Positions 46,973-63,958 of a DNA stretch of 64,000 nucleotides are shown here, piece by piece. This stretch comes from Terriglobia bacterium (lineage in GTDB: Bacteria; Acidobacteriota; Terriglobia; Bryobacterales; Bryobacteraceae), in contig JAIQFE010000012.1 of the NCBI GenBank assembly GCA_020073445.1, positions 62,001-126,000 on the forward strand, written 5' to 3'. A program made the translations under genes and the position numbers. A model generated the notes under the pieces. That model searched no databases, had not been told where the DNA came from, and was given only the letters and a program-made list of their open reading frames with translations. The stretch's first letter is position 1. Each line of letters starts with the position of its first letter.

Positions 46973-46977
46973 GGCCG

Positions 46978-48306
46978 TTACTTCGCCGCCGTTTCCACTG
47001 GCTTCGCCTGACCCGCCGTGTACGGCTTGGGCCGCACCGTCATCCCCGGACGAACTTTCTGGACACCCTCGGCGACCACCCGCTCTCCGGGCTTCAACCC
47101 TTCATCGACGATCCACTGCGAACCCACCCGGTCACTGGTCTTCACGTTGCGAATGCTGATTTTGTTCTCGCCGTCGACGACGGCAACCTGATAGGTCCCC
47201 TGCATTTCAGTCACGGCCCGCTGTGGAATCAGCAACGCGCCATCTTTGGTTCGCAGGGAGGTACGCACGCGGCCATACTGTCCGGGGCGCAAGAGGTTCC
47301 CCGGGTTCGGGAACAGACCCGCCACGCGAATGGTACCGGTTCCCTGAGCGACTTCCCGATCCGCAAAATAGAAGCTGCCCTTTTGCGGGTAAATGCTCCC
47401 ATCCGCCAGTATCAGTTCCAGGACCAAACCTTTCCGCGCGGCGTCCAACGTAGCCGGTGTCGAATAGCGGCGGTGAAAATCGAGATACTCCTGCTCGCTG
47501 GCGGTGAAATAAACCTTGATGGGATTCACCGTCGAAACGGTGGTTACAGGCCCGCCCGCCGGGCTTACCAGCGCGCCTACTTGTTGCTGCGCCATTCCGG
47601 CGAGGCCGTCAATCGGCGACGTCAGCCGCGTGAAGTTTAGATTTAACTTGGCCGTTTCAACCGTAGCCGTGACCGCCTGAACCGCGGCATTGGCGCCTTG
47701 GATCTGGGCTCTGGCCGTCTCGATCTGCGCCTTCGCGGCCTGTACTTGAGCCTTCGCCGCCACGTTGTTCTGGGTGGCGTTGTCCATGTCCTGCTGAGTA
47801 ATGGCCTGTTGCTTCGCCAACGGCACATACCGGTCGACGTCGAGCTGGGTTCGGACCTGATTTGCTTCCATCACGGCAAGCTGCGCCTCGGCTTGCGTGA
47901 GTTGTGCTTTGGCTTGCGCCAACTGCCCGTTGGCTTGGGCGAGCTGGCCTTCACCCTGATCGACTACCGCCTGGAAAGGCCGCGGATCGATCTCGAAAAG
48001 GAGTTGACCCTTCTTAACGAACGAACCTTCCGTATAGTCCTGCTTCAGCAAGTAGCCGGTCACCTGGGCCTTGATATCGGCATTGACCAGTCCGTCCAGC
48101 GTGCCGATCCACTCGGTGTATATCGGAACGTCCTTTTGCTCGACTTGCACAACCTCGACGACCGGAGGTTCGGCAGTCTTCGCCCCTTGAGTGGCAGTGG
48201 AGCATCCAGCGGAACCCACTACGCCTATGCCGATCAGGCAGGTCGCCACCCAGATACCAAATCGCTCTGTCAAATGGTTCACCGTTCGCTCCAGCGACGC
48301 GCCCAT
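46978..48306 (-). CDS. RND efflux periplasmic adaptor (AcrA/MexA type)
   Basis: 442 residues. Lipoprotein-like N-terminus (GIGVVGSAGCSTAT), biotinyl-lipoyl segment (VTGYLLKQDYTEGSFVKKGQ), and a long Ala/Gln-rich coiled-coil hairpin (about 105-215) built of near-repeats such as QLAQANGQLAQAKAQLTQAE. Beta-barrel and C-terminal domains follow. Bridges AcrB-type permease and OprM-type channel. First gene of the drug-pump operon. Confidence 0.92.
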   Translation of the reverse strand: MGASLERTVNHLTERFGIWVATCLIGIGVVGSAGCSTATQGAKTAEPPVVEVVQVEQKDVPIYTEWIGTLDGLVNADIKAQVTGYLLKQDYTEGSFVKKGQLLFEIDPRPFQAVVDQGEGQLAQANGQLAQAKAQLTQAEAQLAVMEANQVRTQLDVDRYVPLAKQQAITQQDMDNATQNNVAAKAQVQAAKAQIETARAQIQGANAAVQAVTATVETAKLNLNFTRLTSPIDGLAGMAQQQVGALVSPAGGPVTTVSTVNPIKVYFTASEQEYLDFHRRYSTPATLDAARKGLVLELILADGSIYPQKGSFYFADREVAQGTGTIRVAGLFPNPGNLLRPGQYGRVRTSLRTKDGALLIPQRAVTEMQGTYQVAVVDGENKISIRNVKTSDRVGSQWIVDEGLKPGERVVAEGVQKVRPGMTVRPKPYTAGQAKPVETAAK

Positions 48307-48456: not shown

Positions 48457-48966
48457 TCAGGCTTTAGCGGTCCGTGTTTTCGACATGTGCAGTGGCTCAG
48501 CGTGGAACTTCCGTGCGGCTTGAACCCCCAACGCCACAAAGACGACCAGCACAACCAATTGAGCGATCTGGAATGGCGGCTCGGACTGAGTCGGCGCGAG
48601 TTCTCTGAGCGCCGGAACCTTCTCGAATAACTGCACGACCAGCACGAACATGTTGAGATAAAGCGCAATCACCGTGCTAATCGCATACGTGCGACGCCAG
48701 CCCCCCACGAGATCGAAACGATAGAGCGCAGCGAGTCCGATGGCCAGCACCAACATCGACACAATGCCCAATCCGATGGCCGGCGTGAAGCCGTGAAACG
48801 GAAAGAGGAAGCCGGTGACGGTGGTCGCCACAGCGGTGGTCCAGAACAGCGTGGTCGAGCCATCCGGCGGTTTGGAAGCAATCAGGCCGGACACAACGGC
48901 GAAACCCGATCCAATGGCTATCAGGCTGATAACGACGTGAATGAGCGTAAACGCGCTTAGAATCAT
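48457..48966 (-). CDS. small integral membrane protein, function unknown
   Basis: 169 residues with four predicted membrane helices (about 5-28, 42-62, 68-88 and 100-120, with a further hydrophobic stretch near 135-152). The C-terminus is basic. Resembles the uncharacterised membrane proteins often placed next to stress genes; no family name is certain. Last gene of the dps-led operon, 18 nt after the chloroperoxidase-like gene. Confidence 0.75.
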   Translation of the reverse strand: MILSAFTLIHVVISLIAIGSGFAVVSGLIASKPPDGSTTLFWTTAVATTVTGFLFPFHGFTPAIGLGIVSMLVLAIGLAALYRFDLVGGWRRTYAISTVIALYLNMFVLVVQLFEKVPALRELAPTQSEPPFQIAQLVVLVVFVALGVQAARKFHAEPLHMSKTRTAKA

Positions 48967-48984: not shown

Positions 48985-49833
48985 TTAGACACCCGTTGAC
49001 TTGGTCAGGACCGCCGTCTTGAGGAACGCCAACAGATCCGCGTTGAACTGGTCCCGATGCGTGGTCGTGAGGCCGTGTGGTGCGCCTAGATAAATCTTCA
49101 GGGTCGAACCCTTGACGATTTTCGCGGCGAGCGGCGACGCAGCAACGATGGGAACAATCTGGTCGTCGTCGCCATGGATGAATAGCGTGGGAATGTCAAA
49201 CTTTTTCAAGTCCTCCGTGAAGTCCGTCTCGGAAAACACTTTGATACAGTCGAACGCGGCCTTCATGCCCACCTGCATACTCAGGCGCCAGAACTGGTCG
49301 CGCACTCCCTGCGAAACCTTGGAACCCGGCCGGTTGGCGCCGTAAAATGGCGCGCTGAGATCCTTGTAGAATTGCGAGCGGTCATTGGCGACCCCGCTCC
49401 GAAGTCCATCAAACACTTCCATCGGCGAGCCGTTCGGATTGGCCGCGGTCTTGAGCATCAATGGAGGCACCGCGCCCACCAAAAGCGCCTTGGCGACGCG
49501 CTTAGTGCCGTGGCGGCCGATGTAGCGTGCGACTTCGCCACCGCCGGTAGAATGGCCCACGTGGATGGCGTCTTTCAGGTCGAGTTGCTCGACAAGTGCC
49601 GCAAGATCGTCGGCGTAGGTGTCCATCTCATTGCCGTTCCAGGTCTGGGTCGAGCGGCCATGGCCGCGACGATCGTGAGCGATCGCCCGATAGCCGTTGC
49701 TCGCGACGAATATCAGTTGCTCATCCCACGCATCGGCGCTCAGTGGCCAGCCGTGACTGAAGACGACGGGTTGCCCGCTGCCCCAGTCCTTGTAGTAAAT
49801 CTGTGTACCGTCTTTGGTTGCGATTGTCGGCAT
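48985..49833 (-). CDS. alpha/beta hydrolase, non-haem chloroperoxidase type
   Basis: 282 residues from [20 protein letters not shown]. The [13 protein letters not shown] oxyanion segment, the nucleophile Ser in [12 protein letters not shown] and the catalytic His in [11 protein letters not shown] are those of cofactor-free haloperoxidases, which also act as esterases and perhydrolases. Ribosome-binding site AAAGGAG. Fourth gene of the dps operon. The upstream frame to 49863 adds ten residues with no homology. Confidence 0.9.
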
Positions 49834-49853
49834 GATTTCCTCTCCTTTAGTTA

Positions 49854-50717
49854 CTAAGAACACGACATGAAGGCCCGAACGATCTCTGCAATCTGGTCCG
49901 CTGCTGTATCAAGCGCGAAATGGCCCGCTTGGAGCACATGGACTTCGGCATTCGGCACGTCTCGGGCGTAGGCCTCCGGTTCAGAAAGCTCGAACGACAG
50001 GTCGTATTTTCCCCAAAGGACCAGAAGCCGAGGCTGCTTTTCGTGCATCCAGGCTTGCCACTTGGGGTAGGCTTCTACGTTCGTGCGGTAGTCGTAGAAA
50101 AGGTCGCTTTGAATATCGCCCTGGCCAGGCTGGCTAAGAAAGGCGAACTCATCGGTCCACAGATCCGGGTCATAGCGTTCCACGTTAGGATCGCTCCCGA
50201 CATGGCGTGTCCGCGTCGTCGCCAGCGACAGGAGATTTGTGCGCAGCGTGCTTTCATTGGCGGCACGATCGGCCCAAAACGCCCGCCGCGTCTTCCAATT
50301 CGCACCCAGGCCTTCGTTGTGCGCCACAGCATCCTGCACAATGAGAGCCTCGATCCGGTCTGGATGCGCCAAGGCCATGCGGAATCCCACGGGGCCACCG
50401 TAGTCCTGCATGTAGAGCGTGTAGCGCGACAGTCCGAGCGCTTCGGTGAAGCGATTCATAATCTCGGCGTAGTGGTCGAACGTATACGCGAATGTTTTAG
50501 GGTCCGGCCAGTCGCTATGTCCAAAGCCTGGGTAATCAGGCGCGACAAGCTGATAGCGATCGGAAAGACGGGCGAAGAGCGGCTCGAACATCCGCGAGGA
50601 AGAGGGGAGGCCGTGCAGCAGGAGCAACGTCTGCGCATCCTTCGGGCCGGCCTCTCTGTAGAAGACGGAGAGACCATCGATCTGTGTCGTGCGATAGAAA
50701 GTCGGATGTCGCATCAT
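49854..50717 (-). CDS. alpha/beta hydrolase, haloalkane dehalogenase-like
   Basis: 287 residues. [16 protein letters not shown], the nucleophile Asp in [13 protein letters not shown] (Asp rather than Ser) and the His in LQAGHFALD are those of haloalkane dehalogenase and epoxide hydrolase relatives. The substrate cannot be deduced. Spacing to neighbours is 9 nt upstream and 20 nt downstream, in the dps operon. Confidence 0.85.
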
Positions 50718-50726
50718 TAGCCGACG

Positions 50727-51761
50727 TCACATCGTGAGGACGACGCGGAACAGCACGTGGCCGCTCAGCATGCGAGCGTACGCCTCGCCAGCCTTTTCGA
50801 GCGGATAAGTTTCGATCATCGGACGCACGCCGCTCAATTCGGCGAAGCGCAGAGTGTCCTCGGAATCCGCCGCCGTCCCCGCGGCCCAGCCTTGAATCGA
50901 TCGACTGCCCGTGATGAGTTGCACGGGTGTGACCTCGATGGGATCGAAAGCCGCACCAATCACCATTAATTTACCGTTCGGGCCCAGGCCGTCGATCAGT
51001 TCGGACATCGCCTTGGAGCTTGGGGCCGTCGCGAGAATCGCCTGCGCGCCTCCCAGTTTTTGCAACTCCTCGGCAGCGTTCGCCGACTTGCTGTCGATAT
51101 ACACGGTCGCGCCGAGTTTCTTCGCGAGATCCCCGTGTTCGGACCCGTGCCCTATTGCCGCGACCTTGTAGCCAAACTTGCTCGCAAATTGAACTCCGAG
51201 ATGACCCAGACCGCCGATCCCCTCTATCGCGACCAAGTCGCCCGGGAGCGCGCCGCTGTGCCGCAGCGCGTTGTAGGTTGTAATTCCGGCGCACAGCAGC
51301 GGTGCGGCTTCGACGTCGGTTAGAGTTTCCGGGATCGGGACCAGGGCCTCGACGGGAGCCACCATGTATTGTTGGTATCCGCCGTCGTAGCTGATGCCCG
51401 GGATTTTCAGGTTCCGGCAATTGCGAAAATCCCCGCGCCGGCAGGAGGGGCACGTGTTGTCCTGTCCGCCGTGCCAGCCGACACCGACGCGCTGTCCCAG
51501 CTTCCAGGCGAGAACGCCTGCGCCCAGTTCGTGGATAACGCCTGCGACTTCGTGTCCTGGAACGCGCGGAAACTGAATTCCCGGCCACTGGCCTTCTTTT
51601 GTGAATACGTCACTGTGGCAGACACCACAGGCCTGCACCTTGATGCGCACCTGTCCTGCGCCCGGCTTAGGAATCTCACGTTCGACGATCTGAAAATCCG
51701 CTCCCGCCGTGGGGATCTGCGCGGCCTTCATTGGTGCTATTCCCACGTTTGCGGCTGCCAT
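50727..51761 (-). CDS. zinc-dependent alcohol dehydrogenase
   Basis: 344 residues. Catalytic zinc ligands in ACGVCHSDVF and GHEVAGVI; structural zinc Cys cluster CPSCRRGDFRNC; NAD motif GIGGLGHLG. A medium-chain alcohol dehydrogenase close to the AdhA/AdhP type that reduces or oxidises small alcohols and aldehydes. Ribosome-binding site AGGAGG six bases before the ATG. Second gene of the dps operon. Confidence 0.92.
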   Translation of the reverse strand: MAAANVGIAPMKAAQIPTAGADFQIVEREIPKPGAGQVRIKVQACGVCHSDVFTKEGQWPGIQFPRVPGHEVAGVIHELGAGVLAWKLGQRVGVGWHGGQDNTCPSCRRGDFRNCRNLKIPGISYDGGYQQYMVAPVEALVPIPETLTDVEAAPLLCAGITTYNALRHSGALPGDLVAIEGIGGLGHLGVQFASKFGYKVAAIGHGSEHGDLAKKLGATVYIDSKSANAAEELQKLGGAQAILATAPSSKAMSELIDGLGPNGKLMVIGAAFDPIEVTPVQLITGSRSIQGWAAGTAADSEDTLRFAELSGVRPMIETYPLEKAGEAYARMLSGHVLFRVVLTM

Positions 51762-51770
51762 GGATGCCTC

Positions 51771-52280
51771 CTAGAGAGTGCGGGCTGTCTCAGCCAGGAA
51801 CCACGTCCGCCGCTCGGTTTGGTCGATCCACACCTCGATCAGGCTGGTGGTGGCAACATCGTTGAGCTCCTCGCAGATCTCGTGTGCTGAACGGAGGAAA
51901 CGGGTGAGCTGCTGGTTGTCCGAGCGAAGCTCCGCCAGCATTTTCTCCGGCGGCACAAAATCCTGATTGTTGTCTTTCAGACGCTGATTCCCGGATATAT
52001 CGCTGATGGAGCGAATGGTCGCGCCGCCGATCTTGCGGGCCCGTTCCGCGATATCGTCGGTCATGGCGAAGATCTGCTCCGCCTGCTCGTCCAGCAACAA
52101 GTGATAATCGCGAAAGTGACGGCCGCTCATGTGCCAATGGAAGTTCTTGGTCTTTACATAGAGCGTGAAGACATCGGCCAGCAGCTGACGCAGAACCGCG
52201 AATATCTCCACGACGGCATCGCCGGTCAGATCCGTGATGACCTCGGGTGCCGGAACACGATTGCTTGCTTTCGGTGTCAT
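51771..52280 (-). CDS. dps: Dps-family DNA-protecting ferroxidase
   Basis: 169 residues from MTPKASNRVPAPEVITDLTG, with GGCAAGGAG before the ATG. Four-helix ferritin-like fold. The ferroxidase segment NFHWHMSGRHFRDYHLLLDE carries His, Asp and Glu ligands. Dps forms a 12-mer that oxidises Fe(II), consumes peroxide and coats DNA in stress. The frame is open to 52349 but the extra residues are not conserved. First gene of the five-gene operon, 86 bp downstream of the palindrome at 52367-52384. Confidence 0.9.
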   Translation of the reverse strand: MTPKASNRVPAPEVITDLTGDAVVEIFAVLRQLLADVFTLYVKTKNFHWHMSGRHFRDYHLLLDEQAEQIFAMTDDIAERARKIGGATIRSISDISGNQRLKDNNQDFVPPEKMLAELRSDNQQLTRFLRSAHEICEELNDVATTSLIEVWIDQTERRTWFLAETARTL

Positions 52281-52366
52281 GAAATCTCCTTGCCGTATGA
52301 ATCCGTTGATTGAAGCGTACGGGAGTAGCGCAGCGAAAGGAATTACCAAGACTCGGAGTTTTTAAG

Positions 52367-52384
52367 TAACTCTTTCGTGGTACC
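52367..52384 (-). promoter_or_regulatory. regulon palindrome upstream of dps operon (site 1)
   Basis: On the minus strand GGTACCACGAAAGAGTTA, with 13 bases identical to site 3 at 62045; the right half-site is degenerate. 86 nt upstream of the dps start codon. Confidence 0.7.
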
Positions 52385-52522
52385 GACGATCCTCCGGCAA
52401 GACGGTGGATCTGGACCCCGCGTTGGCGAAGGTTTGCGCAAGTGAGGCCCTTAACTCCGGCGGGTTGATTCGTAACCGCATTGAAATACCATGTCTGGAC
52501 GGCTGCGTTCGTCTATCGAGCT

Positions 52523-52550
52523 TTGCAACAGCCGCCAGTAGTTTTATGCT
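52523..52550 (+). promoter_or_regulatory. possible promoter of the TonB receptor-kinase operon
   Basis: TTGCAA (52523-52528) and TATGCT (52545-52550) with a 16-nt spacer, about 77 nt before the receptor ATG; each box matches consensus at 4 of 6. Confidence 0.35.
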
Positions 52551-52626
52551 GGAGAGACCACGAACTCCACGTCGAAGTTCTAGAAGCCAGAAGTCCGGTT
52601 AACCGAAATCCTAGGATCTAGCATCC

Positions 52627-55600
52627 ATGCTCTGGAGAGGGTTGACATTACTTTTCCTGATCACAGCCCCTGTGGTCTTTGCGCAACAGGACCGTGCAAC
52701 TTTTACCGGTAACGTCCGTGATGCGTCGGGAGCCCCGGTGTCTGGCATAAGCGTTCAGGTCACGAACACAAAGACGAACGCTGCCTACGAATCGCTGACC
52801 AACGAAGCCGGCAAGTACACGGTGCCGAATCTTCCCATTGGAGTGTACAAGCTCGCTTTCCGCGCGTCCGGATTCAAGACTTTTGTTCGGGACCCTATTA
52901 CGTTGAACGTGGCTCAGGTAGCGCGAATTGACGCCGAGATGCAATTGGGTGCGGTTAGCGAATCTATCGAGGTCCGCGAAGAAGCGCCGCTACTGCAAAC
53001 GGATACGCCCGAGGTGGGCACCGTCCTGAACAGTCGCTCGATGACCGATCTGCCACTCGACTTTTCCGGCGGGCGCTACGCGGAGAATTTTGCGTACCTG
53101 TTGACGCCGGGCGTTGGCGGAAACAATTACACCAGCCGGATCAATGGAAGCGCGGCGTTTTCGAAAGCTGTGGTTCTGGACGGGTCTGACGCGACGATTT
53201 ACATCGGCGGCCACTTCGGCGAATCCAGCCCATCTGTGGAAGCGTTCGAGGAATTCAAAGTCCAGACCTCCGGCATGAGCGCCGAATACGGCCGAACCGG
53301 CGGCGGAGCGTTCAACTTCGTGATGAAGTCCGGCACCAACCAGATGCATGGTTCCGCTCTCGGACTCATTCACAACGAATGGGCGGACGCGAATTCTTTC
53401 GCGAACAATTACTTTGACAACCCCAGGCAAAGGGACCGCCGGCATGACTTTGGCGGTTCGCTGGGCGGGCCGGTCTACCTGCCAAAGATTTACAACGGCA
53501 AGGACAAGACGTTCTTCTACGTCGCTTACGAGCGCTACCAGGAATCGTCGGCGGGCGGCGGTTCTCCTACCGTAACGGTCCCGCCCAATGAGTTCTGGAA
53601 CGGCAATCTCAGCAGGCTTCTAGGAAATCAAGTTATCGGCCAGGATGCGCTCGGCCGAAACATTTCCCAGGGTGCGATCTACGACCCGGCATCCACCAGT
53701 ATCATGGGCGGCCAGATGGTTCGCGATCCGTTTCCGGGCAATGTCATTCCCTTGCAGTCGATCTCCGGTCCCGCGAGAAAGCTCGGTGCGATCTTTATGA
53801 AAGACTACTCGCCGACAGTGAAAGGCCCAAACGGCCAGATCGCCCTCTTGAATAATTCCTTCTTCCCCGTGTCGAATCAGGCCGGCTTCACCCAGAATCA
53901 GTTCTCCGTGAAGGCCGACCATTCCCTGTCGCCATCGCAAAAGCTCAGCGGATCTTTTGTCTACGTCGATCGTCCCCGCGTCCTGCTCGATCAGGGCGGC
54001 GTGTGGGATTTCAACGATCCCAACGGCGGTCCGCTATCGCGCGCGCGGTTGCAGTGGGTTCGCAGCTGGTACGGCCGCACGGCCTACGACTGGACGCTTT
54101 CTCCGTCGATTCTGAATCACCTGCAACTGGGCTTTAACCGGCAGCGGAATCCCAGTCTGTCGACGCATCTTAGCGAGAATGGCGTTGCCGCGCTTGGCCT
54201 CCAGGGACTGTCCAGGAATTACAACTATCCCGAGATTAACCTCGGCAGCAATAACTATCTGGTGAACTACCCCACTCTCGGATATCAGACGAACGATTTC
54301 GGGGCGGGTCAGAACTTTCAGATTGTCGACACGCTGACATGGATCAAGGGCCGGCACTCGATCCGCGCGGGCGCGGACTGGCGCAGATCCTACGAGCGCT
54401 GGCGAACGAACAACGGTCCGGCGGAGATCGATTTCAGTCAGGCTCAAACCGGCCTCCAAGGTTTCACGCAGACGGGCAACGGGTTCGCGAGCATGCTGCT
54501 CGGGCAAGTGGCGACGGCTAACGTTCCGCTGTCTACGCCCACGGGATCGAGGTTCCTGAATTTCGCGCTGTTCTGGCAGGACGATTTCAAGGTCAGCAGC
54601 CGTCTCACGTTGAACCTGGGACTGCGCTGGGACTATCAGCCGCTTCCCGTCGAACAGTACAACCGTCTCAGCAACTTCAATACCGGCCTCATCGATCCGA
54701 TGTGGAGACTTCCGGGTGCGCTTGAATTTGCCAGCGCGGATCGACGCACGTTCGCGCCGAATCACTATCTCGATTTTTCGCCGCGCTTCGGCTTTGCGTA
54801 CCAAGTGGCCAATAAGACTGTCCTCCGCGGCGGGTATGGCCTGTTCTACCTGGCGCGGAACGGAAACGGATGGTCGGGTGTGCCGTGGGGGCAGACGGCA
54901 GGGTACGGGCAGCAGGATAGGGTGACTTCCAATATCGCCTATCAGCCTGCCTGGAATTGGTCGAATCCATACCCGGGCGTGGTCCAGAATCTCCCGCAGA
55001 ACGCCTCTCTTGCCAGTGGATCTCCGGGAGTCTGGGGCATCGTGAGCTACGATCCGGATGCGGGCAAGAACGGCTACGTGCAGCAGTGGAACTTCAACGT
55101 CCAGCGCGAATTGCCGTTCCAGACGGTTCTGGACGTCGGCTATGTTGGCTCGAAGAGCACCGGCATTCAGGCGAACGAACTTCGGGCGTTAAATCAGCTC
55201 AATCCTAAATTCCTGGCTCTCGGCGATGCGCTCGGGGCAACTGTTACGAATCAAGGCGAAGTTCCTGCTTCTGTGGCCGCCGCGGGCGGAAGATATCCGT
55301 TTGGAAACTCGGGAATTCCGGTTTCCGCTTATCAGACGCTGCTGCCGTATCCGCAGATGATGCCGTGGAACACGATCATGAGCGCGTCCACGCCGCTCGG
55401 ATTCTCCACGTACCACGCGCTGCAAGTTCAACTGAACAAGCGATTCTCGGCCGGCCTCAGCTTCTTGTGGAACTACACGTTTTCGAAGTCGATTTCCAAT
55501 GTCCAGTCGGCCTTCGGCGATACATATGGAGCCAACTCAGGGCTGTCGCCGGACTACTACAATCTTGCGCTTGCTAAATCGATCTCTGACGCGGACCGAA

Positions 55601-56202
55601 CTCACGTGTTCAAGATCGGCGCGCAGTATGACTTGCCCTTCGGAAAAGGCCGACGGTTTGGCTCGAACAGCAATACGGCCGTCGACCTTGCACTCGGCGG
55701 ATGGGCGATTCAGTACGTCGGCAACTACACCAGCGGGTGGCCGCTCGGGATCACGGGCTCGGGTACGCCCAACAGCAACTTGCCGACGAACCCCGGATTT
55801 GCGATGAATCCTAACGGCGAACCGCTCACCGTCGACTGGAACTCCTCGCAGATCGACATGAGCCGGATCAACCAGCCGAATCCGGCGGACTTGTACATCA
55901 ACAGGTCGGTCTTTGTGGATCCGATTTCGATCGGCCGCTACCAGCGCGGCAACACCTCACATCTTCTTTCCCAGCTTCGCGGGCCGTGGCAGCTTTCTGA
56001 AAACTTCTCGTTGCAGAAGAATATCCGTCCACTCGAATCGCTGCGCATCCAACTTCGAGCCGACCTTCTGAATGCGTTTAACAGGACACTGTGGGGTAAC
56101 ATAGAAACCAACGCTGCCAGCCCGCTGTTTGGGCAGGTTACTGGCGCGAGCGACTGGTTTTCGCCCCGAAAGATCCAGTTCGGAGTCCGTGCTGATTGGT
56201 GA
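52627..56202 (+). CDS. TonB-dependent receptor with carboxypeptidase-regulatory domain (Oar-like)
   Basis: 1191 residues. Signal peptide ending LITAPVVFAQ, regulatory-like domain (TFTGNVRDASGAPVSGISVQ, about 22-110), plug (about 120-230) with LNSRSMTDLPLD, and a barrel ending VRADW. Same architecture as the receptor at 19755-23381 but diverged. The next gene starts 32 nt downstream and is followed by an overlapping sensor kinase and regulator, so uptake and sensing of one ligand are probably linked. Confidence 0.92.
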   Translation: MLWRGLTLLFLITAPVVFAQQDRATFTGNVRDASGAPVSGISVQVTNTKTNAAYESLTNEAGKYTVPNLPIGVYKLAFRASGFKTFVRDPITLNVAQVARIDAEMQLGAVSESIEVREEAPLLQTDTPEVGTVLNSRSMTDLPLDFSGGRYAENFAYLLTPGVGGNNYTSRINGSAAFSKAVVLDGSDATIYIGGHFGESSPSVEAFEEFKVQTSGMSAEYGRTGGGAFNFVMKSGTNQMHGSALGLIHNEWADANSFANNYFDNPRQRDRRHDFGGSLGGPVYLPKIYNGKDKTFFYVAYERYQESSAGGGSPTVTVPPNEFWNGNLSRLLGNQVIGQDALGRNISQGAIYDPASTSIMGGQMVRDPFPGNVIPLQSISGPARKLGAIFMKDYSPTVKGPNGQIALLNNSFFPVSNQAGFTQNQFSVKADHSLSPSQKLSGSFVYVDRPRVLLDQGGVWDFNDPNGGPLSRARLQWVRSWYGRTAYDWTLSPSILNHLQLGFNRQRNPSLSTHLSENGVAALGLQGLSRNYNYPEINLGSNNYLVNYPTLGYQTNDFGAGQNFQIVDTLTWIKGRHSIRAGADWRRSYERWRTNNGPAEIDFSQAQTGLQGFTQTGNGFASMLLGQVATANVPLSTPTGSRFLNFALFWQDDFKVSSRLTLNLGLRWDYQPLPVEQYNRLSNFNTGLIDPMWRLPGALEFASADRRTFAPNHYLDFSPRFGFAYQVANKTVLRGGYGLFYLARNGNGWSGVPWGQTAGYGQQDRVTSNIAYQPAWNWSNPYPGVVQNLPQNASLASGSPGVWGIVSYDPDAGKNGYVQQWNFNVQRELPFQTVLDVGYVGSKSTGIQANELRALNQLNPKFLALGDALGATVTNQGEVPASVAAAGGRYPFGNSGIPVSAYQTLLPYPQMMPWNTIMSASTPLGFSTYHALQVQLNKRFSAGLSFLWNYTFSKSISNVQSAFGDTYGANSGLSPDYYNLALAKSISDADRTHVFKIGAQYDLPFGKGRRFGSNSNTAVDLALGGWAIQYVGNYTSGWPLGITGSGTPNSNLPTNPGFAMNPNGEPLTVDWNSSQIDMSRINQPNPADLYINRSVFVDPISIGRYQRGNTSHLLSQLRGPWQLSENFSLQKNIRPLESLRIQLRADLLNAFNRTLWGNIETNAASPLFGQVTGASDWFSPRKIQFGVRADW

Positions 56203-56234
56203 CGGCTCCCAAATGCGCGGCGCGAGGATATCGC

Positions 56235-57296
56235 ATGGGAAACGCAAGCAAAGTCCCTTGGGGAAATGCCCTTTTGGCGGGACTGTGCGTGCTGTTGAGC
56301 CACTGCGGATCGTCTCACGCTTCGGTCGCGCCCTCCATCGAATTTACGAAGCTGCCACCCGCGGGTGAGGGCAGTCCGCAGAAGGTCGACCCCATCGAAG
56401 GCCGCGTCAGCGGGGCTCAGGCCGGCCAACGGATCGTGTTATTCGCCAGAAGTGGATTCTGGTGGGTGCAACCGCTTGCGGACCAACCCTTCACTGCGAT
56501 TCAAGCGGATTCGACTTGGAAGGGTTCCACTCACCCCGGGTCCGCGTATGCGGCGTTGCTCGTGGATGCGAGCTACCGTCCACCCTCGACCATGGACAGG
56601 CTTCCAGATAGGGGAGGCTCGGTGCTAGCAGTGGCCACCGTGGACAGCTCCACGCTGGTGCACCCTGAGGCAAAGACTCTCCAGTTCAGCGGTTACGAAT
56701 GGCAGATCCGTGAAAACGTCGGTAATGCAGGCGGCTCCACGAATTCCTACGATCCCGCAAACGCGTGGACCGATAAGAACGGTTTTCTGCATCTCCGCAT
56801 CGCGGGTCAGCCCAACCGATGGACCAGCGCCGAAGTGATCTTGACCAGAAGTCTTGGATACGGATCGTACCGCTTCGTCGTACGAGACACTTCCCAGTTC
56901 GAGCCTGCCGCCGCATTCAGCATGTCGACCTGGGATGATTCCGGGCCGCCGCGCGAAATGAACATAGAAATCAGCAGGTGGGGTGAGCCCACCAGCAAGA
57001 ATGCGCAATATGTGGTCCAGCCGTATTACGTCCCGGCGAACACAGTCCGATTCATGACTCCTCCAGGAACGTCGACGTATAGACTCCTCTGGGAAGCAGG
57101 GCGAGCATCGTTTAAGACCATTCGTGGATCGTCCGACAGGGAATCCGATGTGGTTGCGCAGCACGTGTTCACGTCCGGCATTCCTTCCCCCGGAAACGAG
57201 AGGATCCACCTGAACCTGTACGTCTTCAATAACAAGAAAAATCCCCTGCAGCGCCCGTTCGAGGTGATCGTTGAAAAGTTCGAATACCTTCCGTGA
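56235..57296 (+). CDS. exported jelly-roll protein, GH16-like
   Basis: 353 residues from MGNASKVPWGNALLAGLCVL, GAGGA six bases before the ATG. The cysteine in LLSHCGSS resembles a lipobox, but His at -1 is not usual, so lipid attachment is uncertain. The C-terminal 220 residues have GFLHLRIAGQPNRWTSAEV and TRSLGYGSYRFVV, the concanavalin-like pattern of GH16-type proteins. No ExDxE catalytic triad seen; the corresponding stretch reads PREMNIEIS, so sugar binding or cleavage cannot be asserted. It overlaps the kinase gene by 26 nt. The frame begins at 56196 if an upstream GTG is used. Confidence 0.75.
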   Translation: MGNASKVPWGNALLAGLCVLLSHCGSSHASVAPSIEFTKLPPAGEGSPQKVDPIEGRVSGAQAGQRIVLFARSGFWWVQPLADQPFTAIQADSTWKGSTHPGSAYAALLVDASYRPPSTMDRLPDRGGSVLAVATVDSSTLVHPEAKTLQFSGYEWQIRENVGNAGGSTNSYDPANAWTDKNGFLHLRIAGQPNRWTSAEVILTRSLGYGSYRFVVRDTSQFEPAAAFSMSTWDDSGPPREMNIEISRWGEPTSKNAQYVVQPYYVPANTVRFMTPPGTSTYRLLWEAGRASFKTIRGSSDRESDVVAQHVFTSGIPSPGNERIHLNLYVFNNKKNPLQRPFEVIVEKFEYLP

Positions 57297-60200
57297 TCGG
57301 CGGCTGCGTTGGTTTGTAGCGGGCGTCGCCTGCCTGGGCGCAAATGCGGCGTACGCGATCGATCCGAATCGGGAGATGTCACAGTACATCCACGATCGCT
57401 GGGGAGTCGAACAGGGATTTCCTCGAGGGCCAGTTTACGCGATCACCCAGACCAGCGACGGTTACCTCTGGATCGGCACCGAGGCCGGGCTGGTTCGTTT
57501 CGATGGATGGAACTTCCGCCTCATACGAGATAACTCGGGTGTTTTTGCGAATGGAAGTGTGCTCGGATTGACCCCCGACAATGACGGAGGCCTCTGGCTT
57601 CGATCGCGAGATCTGACGGTGATGCGTTACCGGCATGGCGCGTTCGAAAATCCGCTGGCCCGTCCGGAGCCCTATTCCAATATCAGCGCGATGTCCCGCG
57701 CGAATCACGGCGAGCTTCTGGTCGCAAAGATGGAAGAAGGCGCCTTCGAATACCAAAACGGCGGATTTAAAGTGGTTGCCGCAGCCACGGACCTGCCCCG
57801 CTCGCCCGTCATGGCATTGGCTCAGACTCCCGACAGCGCTGTTTGGTTGGGGACGCGCGACGCCGGGCTCTACCGTTTGAGCGGAGGGAAAACGAATTCG
57901 ATTACAAGGGGGCTTCCTGATTCGAAGATCAATTGCCTGCTGCCCGACGGCGATCGAGATCTGTGGGTGGGTACAGATAACGGCGTCGTGCGTTGGAACG
58001 GGACCGAGCTGACCTCGGCCGGAATACCGACCTCACTCGACAACTTTCAGGCTCTTGCGATGGCCAGGGATCGCGACGCGAACATTTGGGTCGGCACCGA
58101 TTCGCGCGGGCTTCTGCGGTTCAACGCCCAAGGGGTCTCTTCTCTGAATGGAAGCGACTCGTCCGGCGACGCGGTGACGGCTGTGTTCGAAGATCGGGAG
58201 GGAAACCTGTGGATCGGACGGAACAACAGCATCGAGCGGCTTCGGGACAGCGCATTCGTGACGTATTCTCTCCCTGAAGGTCTGCCCACTGACGGCAGCA
58301 ACCCGGTTTTTGTCGATTCTGAAGACCGCATGTGGTTCCCCCCGGTGAGTGGCGGGCTGTGGTGGCTAAGGGGCGGGAAGCACGGACATGTGAACAATGC
58401 CGGATTGGACAAGGATGTGATCTACTCAATCGCTGGCAGAAAAGGCGAGTTGTGGCTCGGCCGGCAAAGTGGCGGACTGACCAGGTTACGCACGCGAGCG
58501 GACTCGTACACATTCGACACTTGGACTGCTGCAAACGGACTAGCCCAAAACAGCGTTTACTCCGTATATGAAGCTCGTGACGGAAGCGTATGGGCGGGGA
58601 CTCTGAGCGGCGGGCTCAGCCATCTTCAGGATGGAAAATTCACCAACTACACGACTGCGGCGGGATTAGCGTCCAACACCATTACCTCGATTCTGGAAGG
58701 TTCCGATGGAACCATGTGGTTTGCGACGCCCAGCGGTCTAAGCGCGCTATCGCAAGGCCGCTGGCAGACTTACACGGCAAAAGACGGCCTGCCTTCCGAC
58801 AATCTGAACTGCGTGCTTGTGGATTCGACGGGCATCCTGTGGGTCGGAACTGCGGGAGGTCTCGCCTTTCGCGGATCGGGCGGATTTCAGGTTCCCGCTT
58901 CGGCGCCTGAATCGCTCCGCGAGCAGATCCTTGGTATTGCGGAAGATCGATTCGGATCGCTGTGGATAGCCACTTCGAATCACGTGCTCCGAGTGAAGCG
59001 CGACAAGTTGTCGAAGGGAACGCTAGCGGACGGCGATGTACGTGAATACGGTCTGGCGGATGGTCTGCGCGGCGTCGAAGGAGTGAAACGAGATCAGTCC
59101 GTGATCGCGGACTCGCTCGGCCGGATCTGGTTCTCCATGAACCGCGGCATTTCCGTAGTCGATCCTGTGCGGCTGACGAACAGCTCCGCCCCCGCGATCG
59201 CGCAGATTCAAACGGTCTCAGCAAATGGCAACGCCGTCAACCTCCAAGGTCCGATTCGCATTCCGGCGGATCCCCAAAGGATCGTATTCGGCCTCGCCGG
59301 GTTGAGTCTTTCGGTGCCGGAGCGCGTTCGGTTCCGATATATGCTCGATCCATACGATCGCGGTTGGAGCGACGCGACCACTGCTCACGAAGCTACCTAC
59401 ACTAACCTTGGACCGGGATCGTACCGTTTCCGCGTGATCGCAAGTAATCCGGACGGCGTATGGAATCCGACGGAGGCTGTGCTGGGATTCGATATCGCTC
59501 CGCAATTTTGGCAGACGTGGTGGTTCCGTCTCAGCGGAGTCCTGGCTTTGGGACTCGCGATCCTGGCGTTCTATCGCTACAGGCTGCACCAACTCACGCA
59601 CCAAATGAACGTCCGCTTCGAGGAGCGGCTGGGAGAAAGAACCCGCATCGCGCAGGAACTGCACGATACGTTGCTGCAAGGCTTTCTGAGCGCATCCATG
59701 CAACTGCACGTCGCGACGGACGGCTTGCCTGCGGACTCTCCGGCGAAGCCACGGCTGAGCCATATTCTGGAATTGATGGGGAAAGTAATTGAAGAGGGCA
59801 GGAGCGCGGTTCGAGGCTTGCGCTCGCCTCCAGGCGGTTCCCAGGATCTGGAACAGGCATTTTCCCTGATCCAGCAGGAACTTGCCGTTCAAGATGATGT
59901 CGACTTTCGCGTCGTCGTGGAAGGCCGGCCCAAACCTTTGCATCCGGTGCTCCGCGACGAAGTCTACCGGATCGGAAGAGAGGCCGTGGTCAATGCCTTC
60001 CGCCATGCCCGGGCGAAGCGGATTGAGGTCGAACTCGAATATACGGCAAGGTACTTCCGTTTTCTGGTGCGCGATAACGGCTGCGGAATCGATCCCGACG
60101 TGCTCCGGCAAGGACGAGAAGGACATTGGGGATTGCCTGGCATGCGTGAACGGGCGGAGAGAATGGGCGCGCGGCTGCATGTCTGGAGCAGCGCTTCCGC

Positions 60201-60345
60201 CGGAACAGAAGTCATGTTGTCTCTTCCCAGCCACATTGCGTTCGGTCTCCAGAAGGCACGTCGCCGGGTGAATTGGTTTGTCAAGCCGTTTTCAAAGAGT
60301 GAAGGAACCAGAGAGCTGGAACCTGAAAAAGAGAGCCACGAATGA
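57271..60345 (+). CDS. two-component propeller sensor histidine kinase (hybrid-type input, HisKA_3)
   Basis: 1024 residues from a TTG inside the end of the upstream gene. The periplasmic part has about 14 Reg_prop repeats (GYLWIGTEAGLVRFDG and kin) forming two propellers, then a Y_Y_Y domain (about 680-745) and one membrane helix (about 750-772). HisKA_3 carries His798 in AQELHDTLLQG. HATPase has NAFRHARAKR, RDNGCGID and GLPGMRERAERMG. It senses a ligand outside the membrane and phosphorylates the LuxR-type regulator encoded next, which overlaps by 4 nt. Confidence 0.92.
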   Translation: MKSSNTFRDRRLRWFVAGVACLGANAAYAIDPNREMSQYIHDRWGVEQGFPRGPVYAITQTSDGYLWIGTEAGLVRFDGWNFRLIRDNSGVFANGSVLGLTPDNDGGLWLRSRDLTVMRYRHGAFENPLARPEPYSNISAMSRANHGELLVAKMEEGAFEYQNGGFKVVAAATDLPRSPVMALAQTPDSAVWLGTRDAGLYRLSGGKTNSITRGLPDSKINCLLPDGDRDLWVGTDNGVVRWNGTELTSAGIPTSLDNFQALAMARDRDANIWVGTDSRGLLRFNAQGVSSLNGSDSSGDAVTAVFEDREGNLWIGRNNSIERLRDSAFVTYSLPEGLPTDGSNPVFVDSEDRMWFPPVSGGLWWLRGGKHGHVNNAGLDKDVIYSIAGRKGELWLGRQSGGLTRLRTRADSYTFDTWTAANGLAQNSVYSVYEARDGSVWAGTLSGGLSHLQDGKFTNYTTAAGLASNTITSILEGSDGTMWFATPSGLSALSQGRWQTYTAKDGLPSDNLNCVLVDSTGILWVGTAGGLAFRGSGGFQVPASAPESLREQILGIAEDRFGSLWIATSNHVLRVKRDKLSKGTLADGDVREYGLADGLRGVEGVKRDQSVIADSLGRIWFSMNRGISVVDPVRLTNSSAPAIAQIQTVSANGNAVNLQGPIRIPADPQRIVFGLAGLSLSVPERVRFRYMLDPYDRGWSDATTAHEATYTNLGPGSYRFRVIASNPDGVWNPTEAVLGFDIAPQFWQTWWFRLSGVLALGLAILAFYRYRLHQLTHQMNVRFEERLGERTRIAQELHDTLLQGFLSASMQLHVATDGLPADSPAKPRLSHILELMGKVIEEGRSAVRGLRSPPGGSQDLEQAFSLIQQELAVQDDVDFRVVVEGRPKPLHPVLRDEVYRIGREAVVNAFRHARAKRIEVELEYTARYFRFLVRDNGCGIDPDVLRQGREGHWGLPGMRERAERMGARLHVWSSASAGTEVMLSLPSHIAFGLQKARRRVNWFVKPFSKSEGTRELEPEKESHE

Positions 60346-60974
60346 GTGATTCTGCCCACATAATACGGATTCTTAGTGTTGACGACCATCCGCTTCTGCG
60401 CGAGGGGATCGCGGCCATCATCAACAGCCAGCCCGATATGCTGTTGGTGGCTGCTGCCGCCACCGGCAACGAGGCGATTCAGAAGTTTCGGGAGCTTCAG
60501 CCTGACGTCACACTCATGGACCTCCGGCTTCCGGATTTGAGCGGCATCGACGCCATGATCGCCATTCGCACGGAGTTCGCAGAGGCCCGGATCATCATGC
60601 TGACAACGTTCGAAGGGGACGTGGAAGTCCACCGTGCACTGGAAGCCGGGGCGCGGGCTTACATGCTCAAGAGCATGCCTCCCAAGGATTTGGTCGAAGT
60701 CATCCGCCAGGTCCATGCGGGGAAGAAGCGCGTTCCTCCGGAGATAGCTGCCAGTCTAGCTGAACACTTAAGCGACGAAGCTCTGACAGGGCGTGAGGTA
60801 GACGTTCTGCGCCACGTGGCCGGCGGGAACCGGAACCGGGACATCGCGGAACGGCTGTTCATTTCGGAAGAAACGGTCAAGGTTCACATGAAGCACATCA
60901 TGGAGAAGTTAGGCGCCAGCGATCGCACCCAGGCCATTGCCATTGCGGTGCGCCGCGGGATCATCCAGCTATAA
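60342..60974 (+). CDS. NarL/FixJ-type response regulator (first)
   Basis: 210 residues. Receiver domain with the acidic pair in SVDDHPLLREG, phosphoacceptor Asp60 in TLMDLRLPDLSG and a Lys in YMLKSMPP. C-terminal LuxR helix-turn-helix (LTGREVDVLRHVAGGNRNRD and SEETVKVHMKHI). Cognate regulator of the overlapping propeller kinase. The DNA-binding domain is similar to that of the second regulator at 62769-63461, so both may recognise related operators. Confidence 0.93.
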   Translation: MSDSAHIIRILSVDDHPLLREGIAAIINSQPDMLLVAAAATGNEAIQKFRELQPDVTLMDLRLPDLSGIDAMIAIRTEFAEARIIMLTTFEGDVEVHRALEAGARAYMLKSMPPKDLVEVIRQVHAGKKRVPPEIAASLAEHLSDEALTGREVDVLRHVAGGNRNRDIAERLFISEETVKVHMKHIMEKLGASDRTQAIAIAVRRGIIQL

Positions 60975-61020
60975 TCTGCGGTTACGAATCGTTTCATCGG
61001 GCATGCGATCGAACACGCCC

Positions 61021-61036
61021 TCCCCCAAAAGTGGTA
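61021..61036 (+). promoter_or_regulatory. regulon palindrome upstream of alpha/beta hydrolase (site 2)
   Basis: TCCCCCAAAAGTGGTA matches the consensus TACCACGAAAGTGGTA at 12 or 13 of 16 positions, the right half perfectly. 90 nt upstream of the ATG at 61127. A further conserved flank, CCCTCGCCAGGG, follows. Confidence 0.6.
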
Positions 61037-61126
61037 GCAGTAAAGCCCTCGCCAGGGTGATGTGCGCAATCTCCTGGGGGCGCTAGACTCGCTTAGGCCT
61101 CCGAGGCTCTCCCGGCGGTCATCGCT

Positions 61127-62023
61127 ATGGCGCAACCTTCCTTACCTTCGATCTTCAAGGGTCAGACCATCGCCAGCCCCGTGGGCGCCGATATTTTCGT
61201 CCGCTCGGCGGGTTCCGGGCCTGTGGTCGTCCTCCTGCATGGTTATGCCGAAACCAGCGATTCCTGGGCTCCGCTGGCGGCTGAACTCGTAAAGAATTAC
61301 ACGGTGGTTGTTCCAGACCTGCGTGGGATCGGAAATTCGTCGCGACCCGCCGGAGGCTACGACAAGAAAACACAGGCGGCGGACATCCGAGCTGTTGTCA
61401 CCGCCCTTGGATTTGACCGGGCCTCGGTGGTTTCACACGATATCGGCATCATGGTGGCCTATGCCTACGCAGCGCTTTACCCCGACAAAGTCGAGCGACT
61501 GGTGGTGATGGACGCACCGCTGCCGGGTATCGCGCCTTGGGACGATATCGTGCGCAATCCCGCGCTGTGGCATTTCTCCTTTCGTGGTCCCGATGCCGAG
61601 CGCCTGGTCGAAGGTCGCGAGCGGACCTATCTCGACCGCATCTGGAACGACTTTTCGGGCGATCCCCATAAGCCCGACGAAGCCGCGCGGGCTTTCTACG
61701 CTTCGCAGTACGCACAGCCGGGCGCGATGCGAGCCGGCTTCGCGCAATTCACCGCCTTCCCGCAGGATGTGGAAGACAACAGGATCTTCCAGACAACCAA
61801 GTTGACTATGCCTGTGCTGGCTGTCGGCGGAGAGAAATCCTTCGGCACCACGGAAGCGGTTGTCATGCGCAACGTCGCGATCGACGTCCGCGAAGCAGTG
61901 GTCCCGGGCGCAGGGCACTGGCTGATGGAGGAGAACCCGGCATACACCGTCGGGCTGATTCGCGATTTTCTGACCGAGAGAACTCCATCGTCGGCAGCGC
62001 ACGCCGCGCATCCGGCCGAGTAG
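61127..62023 (+). CDS. alpha/beta hydrolase, epoxide hydrolase / dehalogenase type
   Basis: 298 residues. VVVLLHGYAETSDSWAPLAA, nucleophile Asp in VVSHDIGIMVAYAYA, the GGEKSFG acid region and the His in GAGHWLMEENP. Fits epoxide hydrolase or fluoroacetate dehalogenase relatives; the substrate is unknown. No strong ribosome-binding site. It stands alone between regulators and carries a regulon palindrome 90 nt upstream. Confidence 0.87.
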   Translation: MAQPSLPSIFKGQTIASPVGADIFVRSAGSGPVVVLLHGYAETSDSWAPLAAELVKNYTVVVPDLRGIGNSSRPAGGYDKKTQAADIRAVVTALGFDRASVVSHDIGIMVAYAYAALYPDKVERLVVMDAPLPGIAPWDDIVRNPALWHFSFRGPDAERLVEGRERTYLDRIWNDFSGDPHKPDEAARAFYASQYAQPGAMRAGFAQFTAFPQDVEDNRIFQTTKLTMPVLAVGGEKSFGTTEAVVMRNVAIDVREAVVPGAGHWLMEENPAYTVGLIRDFLTERTPSSAAHAAHPAE

Positions 62024-62044
62024 TCAAACCCTTAGCCCAAACCG

Positions 62045-62064
62045 GGTACCACGAAAGTGGTATC
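62045..62064 (+). promoter_or_regulatory. regulon palindrome upstream of doxX-like gene (site 3, best match)
   Basis: GGTACCACGAAAGTGGTATC: two 8-base arms, one wobble, with GAAA between. 103 nt upstream of the CTG start at 62166. Followed by CCCCGAGCCATGGGG, a second short palindrome. Confidence 0.75.
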
Positions 62065-62165
62065 AAAAGACCCCGAGCCATGGGGATTCGGTTTCCAGTT
62101 GTAACGCTTATTCTAAGCTTGGTGCGATTCGGCCAAGTCTGCCGGGGCGCGAAGGAGATAAGGAC

Positions 62166-62588
62166 CTGCAACGGCTATTTTCCACGTTTCCAGGCGGGTG
62201 GCCTGGCGTTGGATTGTTGTTGTTACGCATGGCGGTTGGCGCTACCGCTGTCATCCAGGGGGCGGCGTATCTAACTGACCGCGGTGTTTCGACGTTCGAG
62301 ATCTGGGTCATTGCACTCATCGTCGTATTGAGTGGCATTTTGCTATTGCTCGGATTTCTCACTCCGGTTGCGGGTGGATTAGTGGCGGTGACCACCGCAT
62401 GCACCGCGCTGTCGTGGTTTCCGAAGCCAACGCCGAATCTATTCAGTTCTCCGCTACCGGCAGTTCTGGTCGTAATCATGGGTGCGGCGGTCGCTATTCT
62501 TGGACCCGGATCTTTGTCGGTCGATTGCCGCTTGTTCGGACGCCGCGAGATTATCATTCCTCAAGTGCCTCGAGCACCCAGACCGTAA
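62166..62588 (+). CDS. DoxX-like membrane protein with apparent CTG start
   Basis: 140 residues if it starts at the CTG at 62166, which reads LQRLFSTFPGGWPGVGLLLLR; the N-terminus QRLFSTFPGG...GLLLLR is the usual start of this acidobacterial DoxX-like group. AAGGAG and AAGGA lie 2-10 bases upstream. The first standard start (TTG at 62214) would cut into membrane helix one. Four membrane helices. Role in redox or stress is suspected for the family, not shown. The regulon palindrome lies 103 nt upstream. Confidence 0.7.
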   Translation: MQRLFSTFPGGWPGVGLLLLRMAVGATAVIQGAAYLTDRGVSTFEIWVIALIVVLSGILLLLGFLTPVAGGLVAVTTACTALSWFPKPTPNLFSSPLPAVLVVIMGAAVAILGPGSLSVDCRLFGRREIIIPQVPRAPRP

Positions 62589-62653
62589 GCGCTCCACAAG
62601 CCTCGTCGCCTGTCGCTATCTACCACAATTGAGGTATCCCAGATGCGGTCCAG

Positions 62654-62660
62654 AGTGGTA
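62654..62660 (+). promoter_or_regulatory. half-site of the regulon palindrome upstream of second regulator (site 4)
   Basis: AGTGGTA only; the left half is not conserved. 108 nt upstream of the ATG at 62769, similar spacing to the other sites. Could be chance. Confidence 0.35.
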
Positions 62661-62768: not shown

Positions 62769-63461
62769 ATGGCATCGGCAACTGCAATACTCGGATCCAT
62801 CCGCCGGGTCCCGAACTTCCAGTGGGATATCCGGTCTGCAACTGCACAGATTCGCGTAATGACGGTCGACGAGCATCCGCTGGTCCGCGAAGGCCTTGCC
62901 GCTGTCATCAATCGAGAGCCGGGAATGACCGTTGCGGCCCAGGCGGCCAGCGGACGAGAAGCGATCGCGTTGTACCGCGAGTATCGCCCAAGCGTAATCA
63001 CGCTCGACCTATCCTTGCCGGACATGCCTGGAGAGGAGTTGATCAGCCGGCTTCTCGCAGAATTTCCAGAAGTACGAATTGTCGTGATCACCGATTCGAG
63101 CGGCGACGTGCGGGTTCTTCGAATCCTGGAAGCCGGCGTTCAGGGATTGGTTCTAAAGGGTATGCCCAGCAGAGAAATTCTGGAGGTGATCAGGCAGGTC
63201 CACTCGGGCAAGAAGATGGTCCCACGCCAGATCGCTTCCATGCTCGCCGAGCGTCTTTCCGACGAAACTCTGACTCCCCGCGAGATCCAGGTTCTCCGGT
63301 TAGTCGCCGAGGGAAACCGCAACAAAGAAGTTGCCGCGTGTCTGTCGATCGCGGATGAAACCGTCAGGATGCATATGAAAAACATCCTGGGCAAACTGGC
63401 CGCCCACGATCGAACGCACGCAGTGACGATTGCCATCAAACGGGGGATCTTCCAGCTATGA
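62769..63461 (+). CDS. NarL/FixJ-type response regulator (second)
   Basis: 230 residues. Receiver with acidic pocket TVDEHPLVREG, phosphoacceptor Asp80 in ITLDLSLPDMPG, a Lys in LVLKGMPS, and a LuxR helix-turn-helix (LTPREIQVLRLVAEGNRNKE and ADETVRMHMKNI). AAGGAG ten bases before the ATG. No kinase gene is adjacent, so it is an orphan regulator or answers to the propeller kinase nearby. The first 25 residues before the receiver are extra. The downstream sigma-like gene overlaps by 4 nt. Confidence 0.93.
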   Translation: MASATAILGSIRRVPNFQWDIRSATAQIRVMTVDEHPLVREGLAAVINREPGMTVAAQAASGREAIALYREYRPSVITLDLSLPDMPGEELISRLLAEFPEVRIVVITDSSGDVRVLRILEAGVQGLVLKGMPSREILEVIRQVHSGKKMVPRQIASMLAERLSDETLTPREIQVLRLVAEGNRNKEVAACLSIADETVRMHMKNILGKLAAHDRTHAVTIAIKRGIFQL

Positions 63462-63958
63462 TGCTCAACTGTCCGAACAACGCGATCGCCCGAAATGGGG
63501 ATCTGTCCATGACCACCGAATCGACCTTGCGCGAATCCCTTGATAAGGCGTTCATCACTGCCTTCCTGCTGAGCGGCGACACCGCGCGGGCAGAGGCTGC
63601 GGTCCTGAAAGGTATTGAACGGATGAGTTCGGATCACGGCGGTCAGGAACTGTTACAAGGCACGGTGAAAGCCGCGATCGGGCGCGACAATCCTCCCGGG
63701 CGAAGTCCCGAACTGATGGGGCCGGCCTTGTCAAGGCTGCCATTAGAACTACGGCGTGTTGCGCGGTTGCCACATTTTCTTCGCCAATGCTTCGTATTGC
63801 GCGTTCTGGCCGGATTGCCTCGCGAACGGTGCGCTCACCTGCTGAATTTGCACGCCGACCAGGTGGACCAGGGTACGCGCGCGGCCATGCTGGAGCTGCC
63901 ATGGATCCGGGAAAAGAGTTTTGCAACTCATTCCGGTTGGAATGGGTCGAATAACTGA
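63458..63958 (+). CDS. degenerate sigma-factor-like protein
   Basis: 166 residues. The C-terminal half has LPLELRRVARLPHFLRQCFV and LRVLAGLPRERCAHLLNL, which resembles ECF sigma region 4; region 2 is not recognisable. It could be a regulator that binds DNA or core polymerase rather than a full sigma factor. Its ATG overlaps the stop of the second response regulator (ATGATG). The ATG at 63509 is an alternative start. 63959-64000 shows nothing. Confidence 0.6.
   Translation: MMLNCPNNAIARNGDLSMTTESTLRESLDKAFITAFLLSGDTARAEAAVLKGIERMSSDHGGQELLQGTVKAAIGRDNPPGRSPELMGPALSRLPLELRRVARLPHFLRQCFVLRVLAGLPRERCAHLLNLHADQVDQGTRAAMLELPWIREKSFATHSGWNGSNN

Follow-up and report, generated by a model that had tools for sequence, protein, structure and literature searches.

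A tandem-dyad promoter element upstream of dps, hydrolase and DoxX-like genes in a Terriglobia bacterium, with a NarL-type response regulator as its likeliest binder

Within a 64,000 nt stretch of a Terriglobia bacterium genome (contig JAIQFE010000012.1, positions 62,001 to 126,000, hereafter the window) a short palindrome recurs ahead of several transcription units, raising the question of whether it marks a regulon and, if so, which regulator recognises it. The initial annotation had located GGTACCACGAAAG at 62045 (plus) and 52384 (minus), with its right half AGTGGTA also at 61030 and 62654, and all of these positions were confirmed, as were the distances of 86, 90, 103 and 108 nt to the starts of dps (ATG, 52280), an alpha/beta hydrolase (ATG, 61127), doxX (CTG, 62166) and a second LuxR-type regulator (ATG, 62769). 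Compared to TACCACGAAAGTGGTA, the 16-mers at 52367 (minus), 61021 (plus) and 62047 (plus) have 2, 3 and 0 mismatches, respectively. At up to 3 mismatches these are the 3 matches within the window, a number reached by none of 100 dinucleotide shuffles. The fourth site needs to be placed differently: AGTGGTA does occur at 62654, but a better candidate is the dyad TACCACAATTGAGGTA at 62621-62636, which differs from TACCACNNNNGTGGTA by 1 mismatch, while the heptamer closes a 16-mer beginning 24 bp after the start of that dyad.

Taken alone, the bare dyad is weak evidence and a poor marker. With 3 mismatches permitted in its 12 fixed bases it gives 16 matches in the window against 10.4 expected, and 4 of 100 shuffles are equally high. 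At 2 mismatches there is no enrichment genome-wide (86 matches vs 183 for a reversed control pattern), and without mismatches the dyad is present in 5 of 101 genomes. All 5 of its one-mismatch places outside the cluster (L002 and L004-L007) overlap mechanically called open reading frames of at least 100 codons. Outside such clusters the longer element described below precedes 0 of 3 dps orthologues (L098, L099 and L100) and 0 of 1 ab2 hydrolase orthologues (L274, the closest one). The bare palindrome was rejected as a genome-wide marker for lack of enrichment in the genome or its relatives; taken together with its extension, the dyad gives a strong signal.

That extension, and with it the greater length of the conserved unit, is seen from relatives carrying the same kinase, regulator and DoxX-like gene. 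The window sites at 52367 (minus), 61021 (plus) and 62047 (plus) are the left part of a conserved promoter element of approximately 70 bp, made up of a 16 bp dyad (op1), a second dyad (op2) and a -10 box at a fixed distance, so that the palindrome was correctly observed, yet it is just one part of the marker, which comprises both boxes of the promoter and the -10 fixed behind them. The consensus of op1 is TACCnCrAwAGTGGTA (columns 1-16); that of op2, an imperfect dyad less regular than op1 and centred 24 bp downstream of it, is TYCCrAGnnYTrGGGA, followed by TTCG. Among 33 operators, which remained of 36 after near-identical ones were dropped, the conserved columns comprise op1 (1-16), an A-rich spacer, op2 (25-40), ATTCG (40-44) and the TAnnnT box. 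This box starts at offset 18 after the 44-mer in 26 operators and at offset 19 in 6 (together 32/33), compared to at most 5 at any single offset in shuffles. Across the 33 aligned operators op1 consists of inverted heptamers 2 bp apart in a 16 bp dyad, the 7-2-7 geometry of NarL-type sites. With the box taken as -12 to -7, the centres of op2 and op1 lie at about -42.5 and -66.5 from the predicted start, and the -35 place is occupied by ATTCG with no consensus hexamer. With the operator next to the -35 place and a predicted -10 box at a fixed spacing behind it in nearly all members, the arrangement resembles that of a class II activator promoter. At doxX, op1 is the perfect dyad TACCACGAAAGTGGTA.

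A leave-window-out matrix of 44 columns scored the doxX, dps and ab2 sites at 54.2, 41.4 and 28.3, which are ranks 1, 2 and 3 of 127,914 window positions, with the next-best score at -3.6; this ranking is not fully blind, because the 30 training operators were themselves gathered with seeds that included the window sites. On reversed sequence the same matrix found nothing above 10 in 3,684,182 positions. A sequence-only profile, of which the three sites were training members, recovered them from their own genome with E values of 1.8e-12 (doxX), 4.6e-9 (dps) and 4.1e-5 (ab2), the next being 0.83. The dyad at 62621 (plus) ranks 5 of 127,970 positions with the op1 matrix but scores only -7.8 (rank 11) with all 44 columns, having no clear op2 and no TAnnnT where the -10 would be expected. 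A further element before the TonB-type gene at 52627 was considered, but no such place figures in the list of the window's best matrix scores. Coordinates are collected in Table 1.

Table 1. Genes, operators and predicted promoter boxes of the window (positions are those of the window)
Feature	Position	Strand	Remarks
169-aa membrane-like protein	48457..48966	-	no Pfam match; often adjoins ab3
alpha/beta hydrolase ab3	48985..49863	-	Pfam; adjoins the element in several relatives
alpha/beta hydrolase ab1	49854..50717	-	dps operon
zinc alcohol dehydrogenase-like	50727..51761	-	second gene of dps operon
dps (iron storage, ferritin-like)	51771..52280	-	Pfam Ferritin 1.5e-25
predicted -10 box TACGCT, dps operon	52314..52319	-	offset 19 from the 44-mer
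dps operon operator	52339..52382	-	op1 52367-52382 (TACCACGAAAGAGTTA), op2 ~52343-52358
conserved protein 'gh'	56196..57296	+	first gene before the kinase; no Pfam match
sensor histidine kinase	57271..60345	+	Reg_prop propeller, Y_Y_Y, HisKA_3, HATPase_c
RR1, NarL/FixJ-type response regulator	60342..60974	+	Response_reg 1.9e-25, GerE 7.6e-21
ab2 operator	61021..61064	+	op1 61021-61036 (TCCCCCAAAAGTGGTA), op2 ~61045-61060
predicted -10 box TAGACT, ab2	61084..61089	+	offset 19
alpha/beta hydrolase ab2	61127..62023	+	domain annotation
doxX operator	62047..62090	+	op1 62047-62062, op2 ~62071-62086, ATTCG 62086-62090
predicted -10 box TATTCT, doxX	62109..62114	+	offset 18
DoxX-like membrane protein gene	62166..62588	+	CTG start proposed; family A4
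op1-like dyad before RR2	62621..62636	+	AGTGGTA 62654-62660 sits in the op2 place
RR2, second NarL/FixJ-type response regulator	62769..63461	+	helix TVRMHMKN

The doxX product scores 14.0 bits (E 0.08) against Pfam DoxX (PF07681), below the curated cut-off of 23.6, and because of this the label is tentative and 'DoxX-like' is used throughout; 3 of 8 DoxX-like members match that Pfam entry at E<=1, the best at 0.021. Members of its family A4 were found in 47 of 237 genomes, and a single genome holds up to 8 DoxX-like matches. The start of the gene is seemingly CTG, and several relatives have CTG, GTG or TTG at this place. Two further features border the region. A 166-aa gene without a Pfam match (63458-63958) overlaps the end of RR2; its product has a relative in a short stretch near RR2 in L089 (56% over 45 aa) and, as an impression only, resembles a degenerate sigma-factor region. 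The strand of the dps operon also carries, further downstream, what the translations indicate to be an RND-type efflux pair (43772-48306).

Searches of the family covered 237 genomes. Using Infernal's stricter filters, with which weak sites may be missed, the profile search returned, at E<=0.005, 32 places spread over 21 genomes: 19 directly upstream of a DoxX-like gene, 11 before other genes, one at a contig edge (G056:C560) and one within an acyl-CoA ligase-like gene (G017). Seventeen of these were training sites, and 13 of the remaining 15 precede a gene in the correct orientation. Apart from doxX, the targets in the window are dps and ab2. Elsewhere the element precedes the first gene of the kinase operon (G130, G056 and G155), the gene of a protein with cyclic-nucleotide-binding and thioredoxin-reductase-like parts (G243 and G244), a DUF4331 protein gene (G257), a receiver-domain gene with an ab2-like hydrolase after it (G238), a gene for an outer-membrane TonB-type receptor (G273) and a sigma-54 activator gene (G005). 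A second copy of the element at locus L091 (9021-9036, minus) lies before a sigma-54 activator gene, so that in G005 the circuit may extend to another regulator. The element is present, together with an RR1 of 69% identity, on two gammaproteobacterial MAG contigs as well (L176 and L177), and one L176 copy precedes ab3; transfer or a binning error would explain their presence.

At the 31 distinct loci having both the element and an RR1 of at least 68% identity, a DoxX-like gene is found in 26, ab3 in 9, the 169-aa protein in 5, RR2 in 4 and dps in 2. Loci L263 and L151 show the one-strand order kinase, RR1, element, DoxX-like gene, dps and ab3, to which L151 adds the 169-aa protein. In L149 and L156 the DoxX-like gene stands together with ab3 and the 169-aa protein, while in L089 the latter two stand apart as a unit of their own, whose site is weaker. 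The dps operon and doxX units of the window therefore hold genes that share one neighbourhood elsewhere. In some relatives dps and a hydrolase lie downstream of the element, and the dps and doxX neighbours would form one operon there. No full operator of its own was found for dps in L263 or L271 (best matrix scores -25.2 and 6.3); the dps gene of L263 shares its strand with the doxX operator and lies downstream of it. Neither the alcohol dehydrogenase nor ab1, both from the dps operon, was found with the element elsewhere (0 of 86 distinct loci with the cut-offs applied). The link that the initial annotation drew between dps, the hydrolases and the DoxX-like gene is supported. Its 'stress regulon' is a putative one, read from gene content (dps, thioredoxin-reductase-like, hydrolases); such content, which at L254 and L256 includes the thioredoxin-reductase-like gene beside the element, would suit an oxidative-stress regulon.

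The proposal that a LuxR-type response regulator of the NarL/FixJ kind binds here was likewise supported, and where one or both of the local regulators had been named, the first, RR1, is favoured, the site of RR2 itself being only a partial match. RR1 would be the likeliest binder because of its NarL-like helix, the NarL-like op1, the co-travel of the element and a helix residue that tracks base 2 of the operator. As in NarL/FixJ-type regulators, RR1 joins a receiver domain to a LuxR/GerE helix-turn-helix, and residues D14, D15 and D60 of the phospho-acceptor/acidic pocket are the same in all 7 RR1 proteins that were aligned. The recognition helix reads TVKVHMKHI compared to TVKVHVKHM in NarL, and the window op1 agrees with the engineered NarL site TACCCCTAAAGGGGTA at 13 of 16 bases, the L149 op1 at 15 of 16 (PMC4549865).

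The element is present at 31 of 48 distinct loci with an RR1 of at least 68% identity, the matrix search finding none at the other 17, compared to 1 of 38 loci with a more distant RR1. By genome the counts are 18 of 21 with an RR1 of at least 70% identity vs 3 of 216 others (Fisher 4e-21), figures that are partly circular because most training sites came from beside RR1 or DoxX-like genes. The 3 others include G017, with the intragenic match, and G056, where an RR1 fragment of 82% lies beside the site; G157, G269 and G128 have RR1 without the element. Recognition by RR2, or by RR1 and RR2 jointly, is unlikely. RR2 is a close paralogue of RR1 (54% identity) and adjoins the element both here and in a few relatives, 4 of the 31 loci; however, the other 27 have the element without a recognised RR2, and the RR2 helix has VRMH for the VKVH of RR1 at the position that tracks the operator.

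Most likely, the motif is the upstream half of an activator-dependent promoter, and two RR1 dimers on the tandem 7-2-7 dyads would switch on promoters in which a proper -35 is missing. The propeller-type sensor kinase encoded next to RR1 would phosphorylate it, after which RR1 would dock as two dimers on the NarL-like dyads at about -66.5 (op1) and -42.5 (op2) and recruit RNA polymerase to a promoter whose -10 is good but which has no consensus -35. Three units would be turned on in this genome, namely doxX, ab2 and the dps operon, with RR2 as a possible weaker target. The alternatives that the site serves as a repressor site, or that its binder is a different, unlinked regulator, are about as improbable as the involvement of RR2. 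Position alone cannot separate activators from repressors in this phylum, and the genome has 48 matches to RR2-like regulators. Dyads at these two distances upstream of a promoter without a consensus -35 nevertheless fit activation, the NarL-activated napF and yeaR promoters have a 7-2-7 site at the same place, around -43 (PMC4549865), and the element keeps company with RR1.

The palindrome could also act after transcription, as an RNA hairpin with a GAAA loop in a leader or processing element. The doxX site does form a perfect hairpin of this kind, and perfect arms occur at several paralogous loci as well, but op1 shows no covariation: 73.7% of cells are paired against a shuffle mean of 75.6%, 466 of 500 shuffles reach that value or more, and 22 of 33 operators leave pair 5/12 unpaired. 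Moreover, transcription is predicted to begin downstream of the element, which would thereby be outside the promoter's own transcript. The hairpin was rejected, there being no base-pair covariation beyond shuffles, and is very improbable; the earlier preference for a DNA operator stands. Local repeats that carry no function, alike by chance or by common descent, would agree with the lack of genome-wide enrichment of the bare 16-mer but are hardly credible as an account of a 44 bp element with a fixed -10 conserved across genera and taking leave-window-out ranks 1 to 3.

Recognition by RR1 also gains from comparison with paralogous regulator-DoxX modules (RR1 approximately 57-63% identical), which likewise comprise a kinase, a regulator, a DoxX-like gene and a dyad in the gap, but whose half-site is mostly TCCCTC or CCCCTC and whose helix has S or G for V. 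From 110 DoxX upstream regions, 30 were first dropped for having no recognised adjacent regulator, and 17 of the resulting 80 rows were dropped for having no clear dyad core, so that 63 of 80 were counted. The TVKX helix residue paired with half-site base 2 as V-A in 51 of 58 half-sites, S-C in 30 of 36 and G-C in 14 of 18; for left half-sites alone, residue X against base 2 gave 25/29 vs 3/34. A tree of the receiver part leaves 2 independent contrasts with support, or 4 to 6 if all branches are counted; these agree in nearly every case but are too few for significance, the clearest being L215, a distant V regulator nested among S regulators with the site TACCTC. A helix-G group (L163, L166, L167, L169, L171, L173, L175 and L179; RR1 67-75%) is without the standard element, and its gaps show CCCT-AGGG-like dyads. 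Tentatively, the kinase-regulator-DoxX modules may be a radiation of parallel circuits, each regulator with its own operator, in which a helix change from V to S or G switches base 2 from A to C; a single helix residue switching the operator would then keep paralogues insulated.

NarL already provides the precedent for this class of regulator, for the geometry of the dyads and for their place in the promoter. The sites of E. coli NarL are also inverted heptamers two bases apart with a near-identical half-site, TACC (PMC4549865), and the recognition helix TVKVHxKH is shared. Unlike NarL promoters, the element has tandem dyads 24 bp apart and a conserved ATTCG at the -35 place; the genes, kinase and phylum differ too, and nothing here points to nitrate sensing. 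Among solved structures the best match to RR1 is VraR (1e-41), which is similarly a full-length two-domain NarL/FixJ response regulator; the VraR helix reads TVKTHVSNI, unlike the TVKVHMKHI of RR1. No description of this element, circuit, operator or its targets was found in the open-licence literature searched, as judged by listings.

NarL/FixJ regulators are numerous in Acidobacteriota, and one of them now has a predicted operator, promoter geometry and target list drawn from sequence alone. The predicted targets are a DoxX-like protein, dps and hydrolases, joined in some relatives by the operon of its own kinase, and the same genes move between transcription units with the operator moving along. 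The paired regulator and operator variants are directly usable for specificity tests, and the paralogue series with matched helix and operator changes is the part that a specialist may find useful. If the proposed radiation of modules is true, it would supply a series of natural variants from which the DNA recognition code of NarL/FixJ regulators could be read.
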